NCBI RefSeq assembly: GCF_000317025.1
Contig: NC_019689.1
Span: 3,612,024-3,676,023 of the forward strand
DNA length: 64,000 nt
Direction of reading: 5' to 3'
Source: Pleurocapsa sp. PCC 7327
Lineage (GTDB): Bacteria; Cyanobacteriota; Cyanobacteriia; Cyanobacteriales; Microcystaceae
Positions 44,090 to 53,767 of this stretch are shown here, piece after piece. Position numbers and translations under genes: made by a program. Position 1 is the stretch's first letter; each line of letters begins with the position of its first letter. Under the pieces are notes generated by a model. The model saw nothing but the letters and a program-made list of their open reading frames with translations, was not told the origin of the DNA and made no database searches.

Positions 44090-44227
44090 GATAACGCTCG
44101 CCCTCGAATCGCGAGATTGGGGAAATTAACCAAAACTAACCCAATCGCTCTGTAATATATTCTGTAATATATTTTGTTATCTTTGCTAGTGCACTTTGAT
44201 GCCGCGCTTTTTATTATAGTAGGCAAT

Positions 44228-44291
44228 TAAAGCTCTCAAGTTCTCTTTTAAGCTCTCTCAAGAGAGTAACTTTTCAGAGCTTTTGAGAGCT
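44228..44291 (+). promoter_or_regulatory. Structured leader upstream of the COP23 gene
   Basis: Nested inverted repeats built on AGCTCTC/GAGAGCT words. An inner CTCTC-TCAA-GAGAG hairpin lies inside an outer AGCTCTCAAG ... CTTTTGAGAGCT pair. They lie 40-105 bases before the ATG at 44334 and before a GAGGAG ribosome site. They may form an RNA structure in the leader, and a regulatory effect is inferred. Confidence 0.4.
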
Positions 44292-44333
44292 AAGAGCCAA
44301 GAGAATACCCAATCTAAAGAGGAGTAAACCCAT

Positions 44334-44864
44334 ATGAAATGGAAGTTAATTGTATCTATTTTTCTGGGGACAGTTTTATTAACGACGCTCAGTTTGAGAC
44401 CAGCCAAAACTCTCTCTCAGGAAAACCCTCAGCCTAACTCGCAACCTGAAATGACTTTTGTCTGTGCCTCAGATGTAGCTCCGCCAACTACCTATGCTTA
44501 CATTCCAGGAAAGGTCGAGCTTCAACCCTTAATGAGCTGGTATTCTGAATATTTACTTCCAGGCGATTCGGCAGCAGCACTTTGTCAACAAGCCGCTCTA
44601 AAACTACAAAGCAAATACAACGAGCAACAGGAGTACCTCTTGGCAAGCAATTGGACAGACGAAATGTGGAAAGTCTGCATGGTCTCAAAAGAAGGGGAAG
44701 ACTGCAATGCAAGCAGTAGCGTCTATTTATTTAGTTTAAACAGCAGCTATCAATCCCCTAGATGTTTAATGGAGGGAATTCAACCTTTACAATGTCCTCG
44801 CTCTAGAGGAAAGGTTATCAGCCTTCCAGGAGGAAGTTATACGCCTAAATGGTGGATTTTCTAA
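44334..44864 (+). CDS. COP23-domain exported protein
   Basis: A 176-residue precursor with a signal peptide (residues about 1-28, LIVSIFLGTVLLTTLSLRPAKTLS). A COP23-type domain follows: TFVCASDVAPPTTYAYIPGK, SWYSEYLLPGDSAAALCQQAALKLQSKY, WKVCMVSKEGEDCNASSSVYLFSLNSSYQSPRCLME. At least six cysteines suggest disulfides outside the cytoplasm. COP23 was first noted as a circadian-oscillating membrane protein in unicellular nitrogen-fixing cyanobacteria, and its biochemical role is unknown. It is the first of three co-oriented genes (spacing 91 and 38 bases) whose products are all exported. Confidence 0.8.
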   Translation: MKWKLIVSIFLGTVLLTTLSLRPAKTLSQENPQPNSQPEMTFVCASDVAPPTTYAYIPGKVELQPLMSWYSEYLLPGDSAAALCQQAALKLQSKYNEQQEYLLASNWTDEMWKVCMVSKEGEDCNASSSVYLFSLNSSYQSPRCLMEGIQPLQCPRSRGKVISLPGGSYTPKWWIF

Positions 44865-44955
44865 AGCTGCATTGGTCTCGTCAAAAGTTGCTATCTGTGA
44901 AAAGATGGAATGATTGAGCTAAAAATTTGGAATTTATCTCCTTAAACTTTGAAAA

Positions 44956-45972
44956 ATGCTTGCTAAGTCCATCTACTGGCTACCTTTTGTTTCTTTACTG
45001 ACTGCTACTTTATTACAAGGTACTACACAGATTGCCCGAAGCATGGAAGAGCAAGATTCTGTTTCAAAGCGATCGATTCAAAATATAAATCCCCCAGCAC
45101 GGACTGGAAGTTTTCTTGAAGACTCAAACTTTTTTTCGCTGCCAATTTCTCAATCCAACACGCCATTCTCACAAAATACAATGATAGAACCCCCTAACTT
45201 GCGCCGCGCGCCCGTTGGCGGAGAAGAGGAATTTAAACCCAAAAAAGTGCCTTTAAATATTCCTGGACTTGAACAGATAGAACAACAGGAAGCTAGATCG
45301 GCTCCCTATAAAGCAGCTCCTAGCATTTCTATCATAACCCCTTCTGGTTACGGAGCTGATTGGGGAACAGCGGGGATTGGAATTGGTTTTCAACAGAGAA
45401 CTCGTTTTACAGAAACTAGCGATGCGGTAGTCGGATTAGGTTTTGGTTTAGGCGACGCTCAAAACCTTGTGGGCATTCAAGTCGGTCTTGCCTTAGTAGA
45501 TGTCAGCGATCCTTTCAGAGATGGAAGTATAAGTTTTAAAGTCCATCGACGTTTACCATACGATTTCAGTCTCGCCGTAGGCGTACAAGGTGGAGTAACT
45601 TTTGGAGTAACCGACGGAGGTTCATCTGTTTATGGCGTTGTCAGTAGAAGATTTGCCCTCAAGCGAGATGTCAGAGAACCGTTTAGCGAAATTTACACTT
45701 CTTTAGGAATTGGGGGAGGACAATTTCGCTCGGAGTCTGATATTAATGAGGGAGTTGAATCTGTGGGATTATTTGGTAGCGTAGCCGTAAGAGTTCTCGA
45801 ACCAATGAGTTTAATTACTGAATGGACTGGTCAAGATTTAACGATAGGAATTTCATGGGTTCCTTTTCGAGATCTCCCTCTAGTAGTTGTTCCAGCAGTT
45901 ACTGATGTGACTGGAACGGCTGGAGATGGCGCTCGATTTCTCATTGGCGTTGGTTATGGTTTTTCATTTTAA
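44956..45972 (+). CDS. Putative outer-membrane beta-barrel protein
   Basis: A 338-residue precursor with an N-terminal signal peptide (about 1-29). A disordered, proline/glutamine-rich linker (about 30-125) is followed by a C-terminal half of alternating short strands with aromatic and glycine residues (VVGLGFGLGDAQNLVGIQVGLALVDVS, LGIGGGQFRSES, GARFLIGVGYGFSF). The final residue is phenylalanine, as in outer-membrane barrels recognised by BamA. I do not recognise a named family. It sits 38 bases upstream of the CHAT protease gene, so the two are probably co-transcribed and may act together at the cell surface. Confidence 0.7.
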   Translation: MLAKSIYWLPFVSLLTATLLQGTTQIARSMEEQDSVSKRSIQNINPPARTGSFLEDSNFFSLPISQSNTPFSQNTMIEPPNLRRAPVGGEEEFKPKKVPLNIPGLEQIEQQEARSAPYKAAPSISIITPSGYGADWGTAGIGIGFQQRTRFTETSDAVVGLGFGLGDAQNLVGIQVGLALVDVSDPFRDGSISFKVHRRLPYDFSLAVGVQGGVTFGVTDGGSSVYGVVSRRFALKRDVREPFSEIYTSLGIGGGQFRSESDINEGVESVGLFGSVAVRVLEPMSLITEWTGQDLTIGISWVPFRDLPLVVVPAVTDVTGTAGDGARFLIGVGYGFSF

Positions 45973-46010
45973 TTGATTTAACAATTAATTGAGATTTTGA
46001 TGATAAGAAT

Positions 46011-48134
46011 ATGAAAATCTTTCAATCTTGGTTCAAAATCAGTTTATTCGTCAGTCTATTTCTAATGCTTACCACTCCTGGTAATACTCAGACTGGCAAC
46101 ATGTCAGATGTTACCGGACCCAATCCTATTCCTGGGGATACTAATCCAGATGGTGGTAACAATAACTCTGGCGGCGATACCAACTCCGGTGGGAATACCA
46201 ACTCCGGCAGCAATAACCAAGCAGGGGGCAATACTAACTCCGGTGGTGGAACCGGCAACATCAGTTCGGGTACTGGCAATACTAACTCCGGCAGCAATAA
46301 CCAAGCAGGGGGCAATACTAACTCCGGTGGGACTACTAACTCCGGCAACAATAACCAAGCAGGGGGCAATACTAACTCCGGTGGGACTACTAACTCCGGC
46401 AACAATAACCAAGCAGGGGGCAATACTAACTCCGGTGGGACTACTAACTCCGGCAACAATAACCAAGCAGGAGGCAACCGCATGGGGACTAATACTTCTA
46501 ACAACCGCAACGCAGAAGGCAGTAATCGGACGGGGGCCAATTCCCGCAACGCTGAGTCAGAAGATAAGACACAACGGGCAACTGAATCGGAAGACCAGAA
46601 TCGACAGGCAACGGAACGAGGAAGAACTGACCGACAGGAAGCTTCGCGAGAGCAAGAGGAAGCCAAACGAGAACAAGCTGAACGAGAACGAGATGAACGA
46701 GAACGAGCCGAACGGGAAGAACAAAAAGAAGAGAAAACCGATAAAGAGGCTCAGCCACAACAAGCTGCTGTCACTGTAGATAGAAGTGCTTATGACAGTC
46801 AGCTTCAACAAGCAGATCCCGTGCAAGCAGTACAGCTTCAGGAAGAGTTTCAAGCAGTAGAAATTCAGAATTACTTAGGCATAGAACTCTATGGAGACAA
46901 TCCTCCTCCCGAAAAGATTTCTGCTAGCTTATCCAATCTCAGTCAAGTCACTGGGAAAAAATCCGCAGTGATTTATGTATCTGCTGTTGATGAAGAAATC
47001 ATTACTTTTTCAGTTTTGCCAAGTCCTTCTCAGGTCTCCGATCGCTCTGGTGCCAGCAGTCAAATTCATGGTTCCAAAGAGCAAAACCCAAAAGATAAGC
47101 TCGCTCAGCAAAATGAGTTTACCATGTTGCATAAAACATCGATCCCGCGAGCTAAATTATTAGAAACTGTTAAAAAGTTTCAGGAAAATATCAGCGATGA
47201 ATTTAAGGTAGGAGAACAAGAATATTTACCATATTCTCAGCAGTTATACCAGTGGATTATCGCACCTATAGAAGACCAGTTAAAAGCCAATGGGATTGAT
47301 ATTTTGGTGTTCGCGTTGGACGATGGTCTAAGAGGATTACCGATCGCAGCTCTTAACGACGGTCAACAGTATTTAGTTGAAAAGTACGCTTTAGCTATAG
47401 TTCCCAGTTTTGGTCTAACCGACATTGGGTATGTCGATGTAAGAAAAAGCCCTATTCTAGCTATGGGGGCTTCAGAATTTACCGATAAAGTTCCTCTACC
47501 AGCAGTGCCAGTCGAACTACAAACCGTTATCGAAAATCCTCGTCGCGGAGAGAAGTTCCTTAATCAAGATTTTACGATCGCAAACTTCAAAAACGAGAAC
47601 CTGAAAGAACGGTTTTCTATTATCCATCTGGGAACTCACGCAGAATTTCAACCAGGAGATCGAGATCGATCTTACATTCAATTCTTTGATAGCCGACTCA
47701 GCATGGGTCAACTCGTACAACTCAGCGACGAACTGGGCTGGAGTTCGTCTAAAAATTATCCGGTAGAATTACTGGTGTTGAGCGCTTGTCAGACGGCTTT
47801 AGGCGACCGCCAGGCAGAATTGGGATTCGCTGGGCTAGCCGTTGCAGCTGGAGTCAAGTCAGTCCTCGCCAGTCTTTGGAATGTCAGCGACTTGGGAACT
47901 TTGGGCTTGATGGGTCAGTTTTATCAAGAGTATGGCGAATTTGCCAACAAAGCAGAGGCTCTGCGACAAGCTCAGTTAGCTATGCTCAAAGGACAAGTAC
48001 GAGTAGACAATGGCAAGATGATGCTGGCGAATGGAGAAAGTATCCAGCTTCCACCGGAGTTTCCCAAGGGAACGTTAGAGCTATCTCATCCTTACTATTG
48101 GGCTTCCTTTACCATAATTGGCAATTGGAACTAA
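46011..48134 (+). CDS. Exported CHAT-domain (caspase-like) protein with repeat-rich N-terminus
   Basis: A 707-residue precursor. A signal peptide (about 1-27) is followed by an Asn/Gly/Ser/Thr repeat region (about 30-165) and a highly charged coiled-coil stretch (about 170-245, REQEEAKREQAERERDERER). A linker and a CHAT domain (about 380-707) complete it. The catalytic dyad appears intact: H543 in IIHLGTHAEF and C593 in LVLSACQTALG. Downstream GVKSVLASLWNVSD and AEALRQAQLAML are typical. CHAT proteases are separase/caspase relatives, and bacterial examples include gasdermin-activating and Craspase-type enzymes. Here the signal peptide implies action outside the cytoplasm, which is unusual for defence CHATs but common in cyanobacteria. 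Substrate is unknown; see the COP23 and barrel neighbours. Confidence 0.85.
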   Translation: MKIFQSWFKISLFVSLFLMLTTPGNTQTGNMSDVTGPNPIPGDTNPDGGNNNSGGDTNSGGNTNSGSNNQAGGNTNSGGGTGNISSGTGNTNSGSNNQAGGNTNSGGTTNSGNNNQAGGNTNSGGTTNSGNNNQAGGNTNSGGTTNSGNNNQAGGNRMGTNTSNNRNAEGSNRTGANSRNAESEDKTQRATESEDQNRQATERGRTDRQEASREQEEAKREQAERERDERERAEREEQKEEKTDKEAQPQQAAVTVDRSAYDSQLQQADPVQAVQLQEEFQAVEIQNYLGIELYGDNPPPEKISASLSNLSQVTGKKSAVIYVSAVDEEIITFSVLPSPSQVSDRSGASSQIHGSKEQNPKDKLAQQNEFTMLHKTSIPRAKLLETVKKFQENISDEFKVGEQEYLPYSQQLYQWIIAPIEDQLKANGIDILVFALDDGLRGLPIAALNDGQQYLVEKYALAIVPSFGLTDIGYVDVRKSPILAMGASEFTDKVPLPAVPVELQTVIENPRRGEKFLNQDFTIANFKNENLKERFSIIHLGTHAEFQPGDRDRSYIQFFDSRLSMGQLVQLSDELGWSSSKNYPVELLVLSACQTALGDRQAELGFAGLAVAAGVKSVLASLWNVSDLGTLGLMGQFYQEYGEFANKAEALRQAQLAMLKGQVRVDNGKMMLANGESIQLPPEFPKGTLELSHPYYWASFTIIGNWN
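46311..46472 (+). repeat. Three near-perfect 54-bp tandem units inside the CHAT gene
   Basis: Units start at 46311, 46365 and 46419 and encode the 18-residue block GNTNSGGTTNSGNNNQAG. They are almost identical in DNA, and partial variants extend to the left from about 46187. The perfect DNA identity points to recent slippage or recombination and predicts length variation between strains. Confidence 0.9.
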
Positions 48135-50965: not shown

Positions 50966-52132
50966 ATGATTCTCAAACGCTTGCGCAAAACACCCCTAGC
51001 TTGGCTTCAGCTAAAGAAAGAAAAAACGCGCTTTTTCGTCGCTTTAGCAGGAATTGCCTTTGCAGATATTCTCATGTTTATTCAATTGGCATTTCAAGAT
51101 GCGCTCTATGATGCAGCCGTCAAACCCCATCGCAATTTAGAGGCAGATTTAGTCTTAATCGATCCGCAACTACAAACCCTGTTCTCGGTCAAAAGCTTTC
51201 CGAGAGAGCGTCTTTATCAAACATTGGCATATGAAGGAGTCGAGTCCGTCAGTCCCGTCTACTTTGCCTCTGGGCAGTGGCGCAATCCTGAAACTCGTCT
51301 AGAGCGGACTATTCTCGTGTGGGGAATCGATCCGGTAAAACCGACATTTAAGTTTTTAGAAGGCAACCAAAATCGAGAGCAACTAAAGCAGCTCAATCGG
51401 GTGCTATTCGATCGAGCAGGTCGTCCAGAATACGGAGCGATCGCGGATATTTTCAACCAGACTGGTACCCTAGAGACAGAAATAAACAACAAAGCGATCG
51501 CGGTGGCAGGTTTGTTTACCAACGGAGCATCCTTTGCTGCCGATGGCAACGTCATCGCTAGCGAATCTACCTTTCTGCACCTATTCCCCAATCGCCAACC
51601 CAATCAGATCGATATCGGTCTGATTGCACTCAAACCGGGTACAGATGTCGAAACAGCGCGATCGCGACTCGACGCAGGTTTGCCCGACGACGTTCTAGTC
51701 CTGACTACAGAAGAATTTGCCCAAATCGAGCAACAATACTGGGCAAATAGTACGGGCATCGGTTTTATCTTTGGACTGGGAGTAATTATGGGTTTCATCG
51801 TCGGGATCGTCATCGTCTATCAGATCCTCTACTCCGACGTATCCGACCATTTGCCGGAATACGCGACGCTCAAAGCAATGGGATACAGCGATCGCTATTT
51901 ACTAACAGTTCTCATGCAAGAAGCTTTAATTCTAGCGGTACTGGGTTATATTCCGGGATTTATTCTATCGCTCGGACTGTATCAGCTAACCTACGCCGCC
52001 ACCATGCTTCCCATCGCCATGAAAACCAGTCGGTCGATTACCGTGTTTATTTTAACGGTTTTGATGTGTTTTATATCGGGCGCGATCGCGATGCGGAAAT
52101 TACAATCTGCCGATCCCGCAGACATTTTTTAG
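50966..52132 (+). CDS. devC: DevC-type ABC transporter permease
   Basis: A 388-residue protein. One N-terminal membrane helix (about 24-45) is followed by a large extracytoplasmic domain (about 50-255) and three C-terminal helices (GIGFIFGLGVIMGFIVGIVIVYQILY, EALILAVLGYIPGFILSLGLYQL, FILTVLMCFISGAIAM). This is the MacB/FtsX-like plan of DevC. The opening LAWLQLKKEKTRFFVALAGIAFADILMFIQLAFQ is typical of the DevC family. DevBCA exporters carry glycolipids in heterocystous species, but DevC homologs are also widespread in strains without heterocysts. The usual DevB membrane-fusion gene is not next to it. The ATPase DevA lies 0.5 kb downstream. Confidence 0.88.
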   Translation: MILKRLRKTPLAWLQLKKEKTRFFVALAGIAFADILMFIQLAFQDALYDAAVKPHRNLEADLVLIDPQLQTLFSVKSFPRERLYQTLAYEGVESVSPVYFASGQWRNPETRLERTILVWGIDPVKPTFKFLEGNQNREQLKQLNRVLFDRAGRPEYGAIADIFNQTGTLETEINNKAIAVAGLFTNGASFAADGNVIASESTFLHLFPNRQPNQIDIGLIALKPGTDVETARSRLDAGLPDDVLVLTTEEFAQIEQQYWANSTGIGFIFGLGVIMGFIVGIVIVYQILYSDVSDHLPEYATLKAMGYSDRYLLTVLMQEALILAVLGYIPGFILSLGLYQLTYAATMLPIAMKTSRSITVFILTVLMCFISGAIAMRKLQSADPADIF

Positions 52133-52665: not shown

Positions 52666-53370
52666 ATGACCCAAACTACACTCACTCCCATTATTTCTGC
52701 CCGCAACCTCAACCATTACTTCGGTCAAGGTGCGCTTCGCAAACAAGCTTTATACGACATTAATTTAGAGATTAACTTCGGCGAAATCGTCATTATGACG
52801 GGACCTTCTGGATCTGGTAAAACAACTCTATTAACTTTATTAGGAGGCTTACGTTCTGCCCATGAAGGTAGCCTAAAAATATTAGGACAGGAAATGTGCG
52901 GCGCAAGCAAGCAACAGTTAACGCAAGTTCGCAAACGAATTGGCTATATTTTTCAGGCAAACAACCTAATGACTTTCTTGAGTGCAAAGCAAAATGTGAA
53001 GATGTCTTTGGAATTACACGAGGATTTTCTTGATGAAAAGATTGATGCCAAAGCGATCGCAATGTTAGAATCCGTTGGGTTAGGAAATCGCGTCGATTAT
53101 TATCCAGAGAATTTATCTGGCGGACAGAAACAACGAGTTGCGATCGCACGCGCTTTAGTTAGCCATCCTCAAATTGTCTTAGCAGATGAACCCACCGCCG
53201 CACTCGATAAAAAATCCGGTCGAGATGTGGTGGAATTGATGCAAAAGTTAGCGAAAGAGCAAGGCTATACTATTCTACTGGTGACTCACGACAATCGCAT
53301 TCTCGATGTCGCCGATCGCATTATTTACATGGAAGATGGTCGTTTAGTTGATGATGGTAAGACAAAGTAA
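52666..53370 (+). CDS. devA: DevA-type ABC transporter ATPase
   Basis: A 234-residue ATPase of the MacB/LolD group: Walker A GPSGSGKTT, signature LSGGQKQRVAIARAL, Walker B IVLADEPTAALD and the switch histidine in LLVTHDNR. The ending ADRIIYMEDGRLVD is typical of DevA. It pairs with the permease at 50966-52132 as half of an export complex, although a decayed gene separates them. No C39 peptidase domain is present, so it cannot itself cleave double-glycine leaders. Confidence 0.92.
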   Translation: MTQTTLTPIISARNLNHYFGQGALRKQALYDINLEINFGEIVIMTGPSGSGKTTLLTLLGGLRSAHEGSLKILGQEMCGASKQQLTQVRKRIGYIFQANNLMTFLSAKQNVKMSLELHEDFLDEKIDAKAIAMLESVGLGNRVDYYPENLSGGQKQRVAIARALVSHPQIVLADEPTAALDKKSGRDVVELMQKLAKEQGYTILLVTHDNRILDVADRIIYMEDGRLVDDGKTK

Positions 53371-53530
53371 TGCGATCGCATATATTTCATTCCAGATATT
53401 TTAAGAATTTACTAAATATAAAGATTTAGTATTTATATTAAGAAATCAATGTTTTTTAAAATTATCTTATCTGTCAAGCAAATAGTATTATTTAGGCTTT
53501 AGGATATAGAGCGAAGAATTGGAGGAAATT

Positions 53531-53767
53531 ATGAATCCTTTCGAACAAAATAAATCCACAATCCAAATAGAAGATTTAGGTTGCTTGAGAGAATTATCCG
53601 ATCTAGAAGTGGAAAAGATTGCTGGTGGTGCTGGTTCCACATCCAATCCAATTCAAGCCATGGAAGCGCTCTTACAACAGGCACAACGTATGGCTATGAT
53701 GGCAACCGCAGCAAATATCTCTGCTAGCTCTGCGAGGAATCTTGCCTCCCCAGCAAGAAAGCAATAA
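53531..53767 (+). CDS. Small peptide with double-glycine leader (bacteriocin-like precursor)
   Basis: A 78-residue peptide starting at ATG 53531 immediately after a perfect GGAGG ribosome site. A TTG 12 bases upstream is unlikely. Residues 11-33, IQIEDLGCLRELSDLEVEKIAGG, have the hydrophobic-periodic pattern and terminal GG of leaders cut by C39 peptidases. The proposed core (34-78) starts AGSTSNPIQAMEALL and is rich in A, S, M and Q with an amphipathic helix. It lies 160 bases after devA. It could be a secreted bacteriocin, a signalling peptide or a substrate of a PCAT encoded elsewhere. No tailoring enzyme gene is near. Confidence 0.75.
   Translation: MNPFEQNKSTIQIEDLGCLRELSDLEVEKIAGGAGSTSNPIQAMEALLQQAQRMAMMATAANISASSARNLASPARKQ

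Follow-up and report, generated by a model that had tools for sequence, protein, structure and literature searches.

Introduction

The curli subunit CsgA is directed to the outer-membrane pore CsgG, a lipoprotein oligomer, by an N-terminal targeting segment next to its signal peptide. Discussion of CHAT proteases has centred on roles as intracellular effectors of immunity or cell death, and TPR-CHAT/Craspase and other CHAT effectors work inside the cell, where they are guided or sensor-triggered. In Bacteroidota, PorP/SprF-like barrels of the type IX secretion system (T9SS) have been described as often genetically linked to a cognate cargo with a type B C-terminal domain, which depends on them to be secreted or anchored at the surface (PMC9143113, PMC12618676). 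Here we analyse a stretch of 64,000 nucleotides, hereafter the window, from the single-contig 4.99 Mb genome of the cyanobacterium Pleurocapsa sp. PCC 7327, whose closest named relative is Hydrococcus rivularis NIES-593. The window encodes, all on the forward strand, a COP23-family small protein that looks exported (44334..44864; 176 aa), an outer-membrane-type barrel protein (44956..45972; 338 aa) and an exported-looking CHAT protein (46011..48134; 707 aa). From a sequence survey of related barrels we propose, with about even confidence, that this locus is a cognate barrel-cargo cassette, in which an outer-membrane barrel without POTRA domains would capture or export a tagged partner and CHAT would be one such cargo.

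The cassette would be a variant of the described pairing of an outer-membrane barrel with its cognate cargo. As for PorP/SprF, the barrel gene adjoins a neighbour, here with the same orientation in 143 of the 145 cases that could be read, and this neighbour would be the cargo. PorP/SprF cargo, in contrast, bears a C-terminal domain and depends on the T9SS, whereas the tag of the cassette partners is N-terminal, the hosts are cyanobacteria and no PorP/SprF family was among the Pfam or NCBIfam matches (E 0.01) of 63 scanned barrels. Two-partner secretion (TPS; TpsA/TpsB) also pairs a barrel with an exported partner, and CHAT occurs C-terminally in cyanobacterial TPS proteins as well. However, neither POTRA nor ShlB nor Omp85 families were among the matches (E 0.01) of the same 63 barrels, and the window CHAT protein gave no TPS match. 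With TPR-CHAT/Craspase it shares a CHAT domain with a His/Cys dyad, but differs in its exported appearance, in the lack of a TPR match and in its pairing with a barrel. The partner tag resembles the CsgA segment in its place next to the signal peptide; no CsgG-type match was found among the family-scan matches of the window proteins and the 63 barrels.

Barrel genes are paired with a downstream partner

We searched 388 genomes of the class for the barrel and found homologues in 137 of them; 80 of the matches listed were fetched with their flanks. A second sample came from a scan of GTDB genomes, of which the best 80 of 186 confirmed loci were taken. Together with the window this gave 161 barrels, 150 of them distinct. 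Five distinct barrels (L092, L095, L096, L141 and L184) lack a next gene, which leaves 145 readable cases. The next gene lies on the strand of the barrel in all but two of these, with a median gap of 31 bases, and the two exceptions (L093 and L132, the latter containing Ns) look like artefacts of open reading frame (ORF) picking. In the first locus set, the preceding gene shares the strand of the barrel in 32 of 76 cases. As the downstream gene is nearly always co-oriented and the upstream gene is not, the unit consists of the barrel and its downstream partner.

By a simple rule, the partners look exported in 70 of the first 78 loci; the same rule passes 395 of 933 ORFs of at least 100 aa and is therefore loose. 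The partners are often short, and a Pfam scan of 12 non-CHAT partners yielded no match over a cut-off.

Partners carry a common N-terminal tag

Many partners contain, a few residues past the likely cleavage site, a tag with the consensus (Q)[ST]GN[QM]SD[IV]TGPN, which the initial annotation of the locus had not mentioned. In the window CHAT protein this tag reads QTGNMSDVTGPNP and occupies residues 27-39 (46089..46127, forward strand); tags of this type also occur in non-CHAT partners of related barrels. When defined strictly as N-x-S-[DN]-x-[TS] within the first 140 residues, the tag was found in 79 of 145 partners compared to 5 of 1252 other ORFs, and two of these five themselves follow a barrel (L192). 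The strict tag is present in 42 of 58 CHAT partners and 34 of 84 non-CHAT partners (three contig-cut CHAT partners were excluded) and is thus common to both. Its serine is at residue 31-33 in 32 of the 42 strictly tagged CHAT partners, and a relaxed form of the tag is seen in 55 of the 58. In some partners the tag is repeated, up to five times.

CHAT is the payload of one barrel clade

The window barrel belongs to a clade of 63, and in 58 of these the next ORF encodes a CHAT protein. In L131, L135 and L140 the contig ends within the tagged partner before a CHAT domain could be reached, and tag and clade were used to count these among the CHAT cassettes; in L141 the contig ends before the partner. 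In L132 the CHAT gene is present, but Ns broke the ORF picking; this locus was therefore counted as 'other' in the survey and set to CHAT in the trees. On a tree of 147 barrels (L095, L096 and L192 excluded), the CHAT payload, assigned to 62 of 144 labelled barrels, requires a single change, compared to a mean of 46.6 for shuffled labels. The clade of CHAT-payload barrels has a support of 87 in FastTree and 84 in IQ-TREE. The 57 cassette CHATs (the cut L128 was excluded) likewise form one clade against eight others, with a support of 96, in a quick tree that places two of those eight on very long branches.

CHAT and non-CHAT cassettes occur together in nine named genomes (Oscillatoria sp. PCC 10802, O. 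princeps RMCB-10, Laspinema D2a, D2d and D3b, Oscillatoria SIO1A7, HE19RPO, S11.Bin022 and Oscillatoriales S07.Bin090; L192 of SIO1A7 is outside the barrel tree). In these genomes the CHAT-clade barrel stands beside CHAT and the other barrels stand beside other partners. Since the payload follows the barrel clade within single genomes, species descent alone is not a sufficient explanation. The window genome holds nine CHAT matches over the cut-off, few for 5 Mb, and by judgement rather than computation a chance adjacency of CHAT in every cassette of the clade is implausible.

The catalytic residues of the cassette CHATs are conserved: the histidine in 58 of 58 and the cysteine in all 57 that reach its position, the 58th being L128, which is cut. 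All but one of the 58 end in G-x-W-N. The CHAT partners are 478-818 aa long, with long and variable linkers.

We also searched 388 genomes in the reverse direction with the CHAT part, scoring at most a few matches per genome. Among the matches listed, 15 CHATs outside the window reach the last residue of the query, and 11 of these adjoin a barrel, all in known cassettes. The other four all end in GNWN. Two of them, L238 and L240 (G133; second copy of G168), are exported-looking and have neither a tag nor a barrel within 12-13 kb. L239 (G017) has the tag on a contig that starts 323 bases upstream, and in L241 (G242:C536) the CHAT protein is cut at its own start. The untagged, barrel-less CHATs suggest that the tag goes with the barrel and not with the CHAT domain, in the two cases that are fully readable.

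One cassette, L128, comes from a record titled Candidatus Gracilibacteria. It is close to that of Hydrococcus, its barrel is 59% identical to that of the window, and the record is probably a misassigned cyanobacterial contig.

The genes and leader of the window locus

The three ORFs are co-oriented with gaps of 91 bases between COP23 and barrel and 38 bases between barrel and CHAT, and their N-termini all look like signal peptides by eye, both as first described for this locus. The initial annotation had let the locus start at 44228; the genes are real, and the first 106 bases of that span are leader, with the start codon of COP23 at 44334. The leader contains a weak hairpin (44232..44297, forward strand) in its RNA fold, possibly a 5' UTR element. 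The fold of 44225-44333 has an energy of -27.9 kcal/mol (z -2.1), with 6 of 200 shuffles equally good, and the leader sequence is mostly preserved in the Hydrococcus locus (L127). No terminator-like site was listed in a scan of the coding strand between the three genes, which is weak evidence for co-transcription.

Purifying selection acts on all three genes. Compared to Hydrococcus rivularis, the non-synonymous (dN) and synonymous (dS) divergences are 0.0096 and 0.097 for COP23, 0.0092 and 0.104 for the barrel (98% identity) and 0.0084 and 0.161 for the last 460 aa of the CHAT protein.

The CHAT protein consists of a signal-peptide-like start, the tag, a low-complexity linker, a pre-CHAT region and the CHAT domain. 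The linker (46128..46751, forward strand) contains tandem repeats with a 54-bp unit in 3.7 copies at 46280-46477; the composition of the array and the length of the protein differ from those of the near-identical Hydrococcus copy (707 versus 776 aa). The CHAT protease domain (47229..48131, forward strand) matches PF12770 over residues 407-705 with 211.7 bits against a cut-off of 24 and ends in GNWN. The Pfam scan of the protein reported CHAT and one sub-threshold match only, with neither TPR nor a TPS domain. The intact dyad described before, H543 and C593, is in place, and C593 is the sole cysteine of the protein.

The barrel protein has a signal-peptide-like start, a low-complexity N-terminal region and a conserved barrel-like domain of about 217 residues (residues 122-338, from conserved columns). 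It reached no family cut-off (Pfam OMP_b-brl at E 0.35, and one NCBIfam match far below its cut-off). Among the 63 relatives, weak outer-membrane matches were obtained with Pfam (OMP_b-brl in three, YfaZ in one and SLH in one) and NCBIfam (OMP_myx_plus and por_somb in one each). Structure searches with the barrel and with the CHAT protein gave no informative match among solved structures. A rough measure indicated alternating hydrophobicity. The C-terminus, ...GVGYGFSF, ends in phenylalanine, in keeping with the barrel-like ending noted earlier; family support for the fold itself is weak.

The last hairpin of the barrel, TDVTGTAGDG (45901-45930, residues 316-325), resembles the SDVTGPN of the partner tag (46089-46127). 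The hairpin motif D[IV]TGxAGDG and the tag SD[IV]TGPN are each widespread in their own family. The resemblance was seen post hoc and has no fair null, and mimicry of the tag by the barrel is only noted here.

CHAT domains are joined to two-partner secretion proteins

Twenty CHAT proteins were scanned with Pfam: 18 from among the best matches to the window CHAT together with L243 and L059, a set picked by similarity rather than a census, from which the contig-cut L252 and L262 were excluded. All 20 contain CHAT, and 18 contain a TPS secretion domain too; the other two are a contig-end fragment (L256) and a CHAT protein of 471 aa (L257). The combined proteins are haemagglutinin-type TPS proteins with a C-terminal CHAT domain (L243:2690-6544, L245:2252-6565, L248:5519-9307 and others) and are apparently delivered to the surface by two-partner secretion. 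In addition, the window genome encodes three exported-looking TPR-CHATs beside TPS genes, L113 (3147801), L115 (1703645) and L116 (3197712). In L115, a TpsA, a ShlB-type transporter and the TPR-CHAT are consecutive on one strand, with the TPR-CHAT directly behind the transporter. As CHAT is joined to TPS in these relatives, outer-membrane delivery of CHAT appears to be a recurring theme. Surface delivery by the barrel cassette finds its best indirect support here.

In open-licence full text we found no paper joining a CHAT domain with two-partner secretion, nor one joining a CHAT domain, hemagglutinin and cyanobacteria. The one paper found there to mention a CHAT domain together with the outer membrane and cyanobacteria has a CHAT-bearing target that is predicted to be cytoplasmic (PMC10907252).

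Three of the 20 scanned ORFs add a glycosyltransferase family 2 domain (L258:2585-7342, and L261 and L263 by eye). In L258 this domain precedes TPS and CHAT in one open frame, as a fusion or an in-frame neighbour.

COP23 is an optional but recurrent member

The window COP23 matches PF14218 marginally, with 30.7 bits against a cut-off of 27, and was missed by the genome-wide family search. A profile built from this copy alone found only two COP23s in the loci, a result by which the three-gene linkage would have been refuted wrongly; this profile was discarded, and the wider association became visible once divergent neighbours had been added. With a later model, seeded from cassette COP23s and therefore apt to under-count COP23s elsewhere, a COP23 gene was found at most 1.5 kb upstream in 22 of 61 CHAT cassettes compared to 1 of 84 others. 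The lone other is L132, in reality a CHAT cassette, and its reassignment gives 23 of 62 versus 0 of 83.

The linkage of the three genes had initially been deduced from their spacing and shared export, and a survey of co-occurrence had been proposed. In the survey, barrel and CHAT genes regularly adjoin, so this part of the linkage holds, whereas COP23 accompanies a minority of the CHAT cassettes. What had been called a three-gene module is thus better described as a core of barrel and partner, with CHAT as one partner type among several and COP23 as an optional addition. The unit is also larger and better conserved than could have been known from the window.

The cassette COP23s fall into two groups, one from Pleurocapsales and one from Acaryochloris/Thermosynechococcus. 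A single group was rejected (p-AU 3e-5; 0 of 200 bootstrap trees) on a tree from which six duplicate loci had been excluded. COP23 was therefore recruited at least twice and is optional yet recurrent. It is divergently oriented in L048 and L182. Eight non-CHAT barrels (L047, L170, L172, L190, L192, L200, L202 and L203) have a COP23 gene at a distance of 2-4 kb, as does the L184 barrel, whose partner is cut off. COP23 may therefore accompany the barrel family more widely, which speaks in part against its membership of the CHAT cassette. The window genome has six other COP23 matches, none beside a CHAT-barrel pair; the one at L115 lies about 6 kb from the TPR-CHAT beside TPS genes. In UCYN-A, COP23 transcripts are reported to be diel and to peak with those of N2-fixation genes (PMC10153697), which does not bear directly on the window paralogue.

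In the Acaryochloris-type loci L037, L038, L040, L042 and L044, a protein that by eye is Ser/Thr-kinase-like and ends in NICPGPLC or nearly so is encoded just upstream of COP23. Short exported-looking proteins often have aromatic endings (RVW, RTW, RYW, RTF, NLW, WWIF, PLW and similar), among them the partners of L053, L059, L061, L069, L070 and L079, the COP23s of the window, L121 and L125, and the exported-looking proteases of L047. Such an ending is possibly a C-terminal signal.

Possible function of the cassette

In the reading that we favour, the barrel gene would encode an outer-membrane beta-barrel without POTRA domains, and the next gene a Sec-exported partner whose mature N-terminus bears the tag, (Q)xGN[QM]SD[VI]TGPN. 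The barrel would recognise the tag and then pass the partner through the outer membrane or hold it there. In the window clade the payload would be a cysteine protease of the CHAT type, with its dyad intact and held on a long tether rich in repeats; the linker, which varies in length between near-identical strains, would form this tether. The cassette would in this way bring the protease to the outer membrane, and there probably to the surface rather than the periplasm, with COP23 as an accessory exported protein of some lineages. We infer export of the CHAT protein because of the signal-peptide-like N-termini and because related CHATs are joined to a TPS domain. More tentatively, we suggest an undescribed cyanobacterial delivery or anchoring system (the literature on the barrel family itself was left unsearched), in which a small barrel lacking POTRA domains reads the N-terminal tag xGN[QM]SD[VI]TGPN on the swappable payload of the neighbouring gene and CHAT is set on the surface both by this route and via TPS, giving extracellular caspase-like proteolysis.

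Several points weigh against the cargo reading. The strict tag is lacking in 66 of 145 partners, including those of the most distant barrels; the CHAT partners of L182 and L197 lack even its relaxed form, and that of L191 carries a variant. The pattern was moreover derived from the data in which it was counted, and because of this and the untagged partners of distant barrels, the claim for the tag is limited. The single change of payload on the barrel tree is supported at no more than 84-87 and is in part a result of common descent. The barrel fold is deduced from weak family matches and a sequence pattern, and at about 217 residues the domain may not offer enough room for a folded protein to pass. 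Since passage through it is doubtful, a role in anchoring or in periplasmic control is possible.

The small domain would suit an arrangement without surface export, in which the barrel has a function of its own in the outer membrane, as a channel or a structural protein, and the partner binds it by the tag and gates, plugs or proteolytically controls it from the periplasm. Strict pairing and tag would be explained as well, and the short length of many partners fits, as does the absence of a Pfam match over the cut-off in the 12 non-CHAT partners scanned. However, the CHAT partners have long, variable linkers and their relatives joined to TPS domains point to surface delivery, and we consider periplasmic regulation rather unlikely. 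A barrel that senses or receives a phage or toxin, upon which the exported CHAT is set off and either damages the envelope or kills the cell, would agree with the discussion of CHAT domains as conflict-system effectors (PMC10907252, PMC9729208). None of the three window proteins matched a PADLOC model at E 0.01, however, and the CHAT protein looks exported rather than cytoplasmic, with no TPR reported, which makes a defence or death effector improbable, although a defence system of a kind not yet described is conceivable. Self-recognition, which had been raised initially, is a conjecture here. Short gaps are common in bacterial operons, and the genes might simply encode envelope proteins that are transcribed together but do not interact, either physically or functionally. 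This we find likewise improbable, since the barrel clade predicts the payload even within genomes with several cassettes, the tag is common to CHAT and non-CHAT partners but missing from both readable CHATs of the same type that have no barrel, and COP23 has joined at least twice.

If the cargo reading is correct, caspase-like proteolysis would move to the cyanobacterial surface, with a direct handle on its substrates, and the pair of barrel and tag may serve cyanobacteria more generally in routing cargo to the outer membrane. With about ten residues, the tag is easily tested experimentally.

Further observations

Among annotated plasmids, the barrel search returned one distant relative, on a plasmid of Cetobacterium somerae (Fusobacteriota; L207:3833-4936, 26% identity). 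An exported-looking protein of 88 aa is encoded 12 bases downstream, and both genes stand ahead of exopolysaccharide-type genes; the tag is absent from this single case.

Downstream of the cassette in the window, a small ORF (53519-53767) contains by eye a leader-like stretch, LSDLEVEKIAGGAG, which we take to be of the double-glycine type. The ORFs before it, 50966-52132 and 52666-53370, resemble by eye a DevC-type permease and an ABC ATPase.

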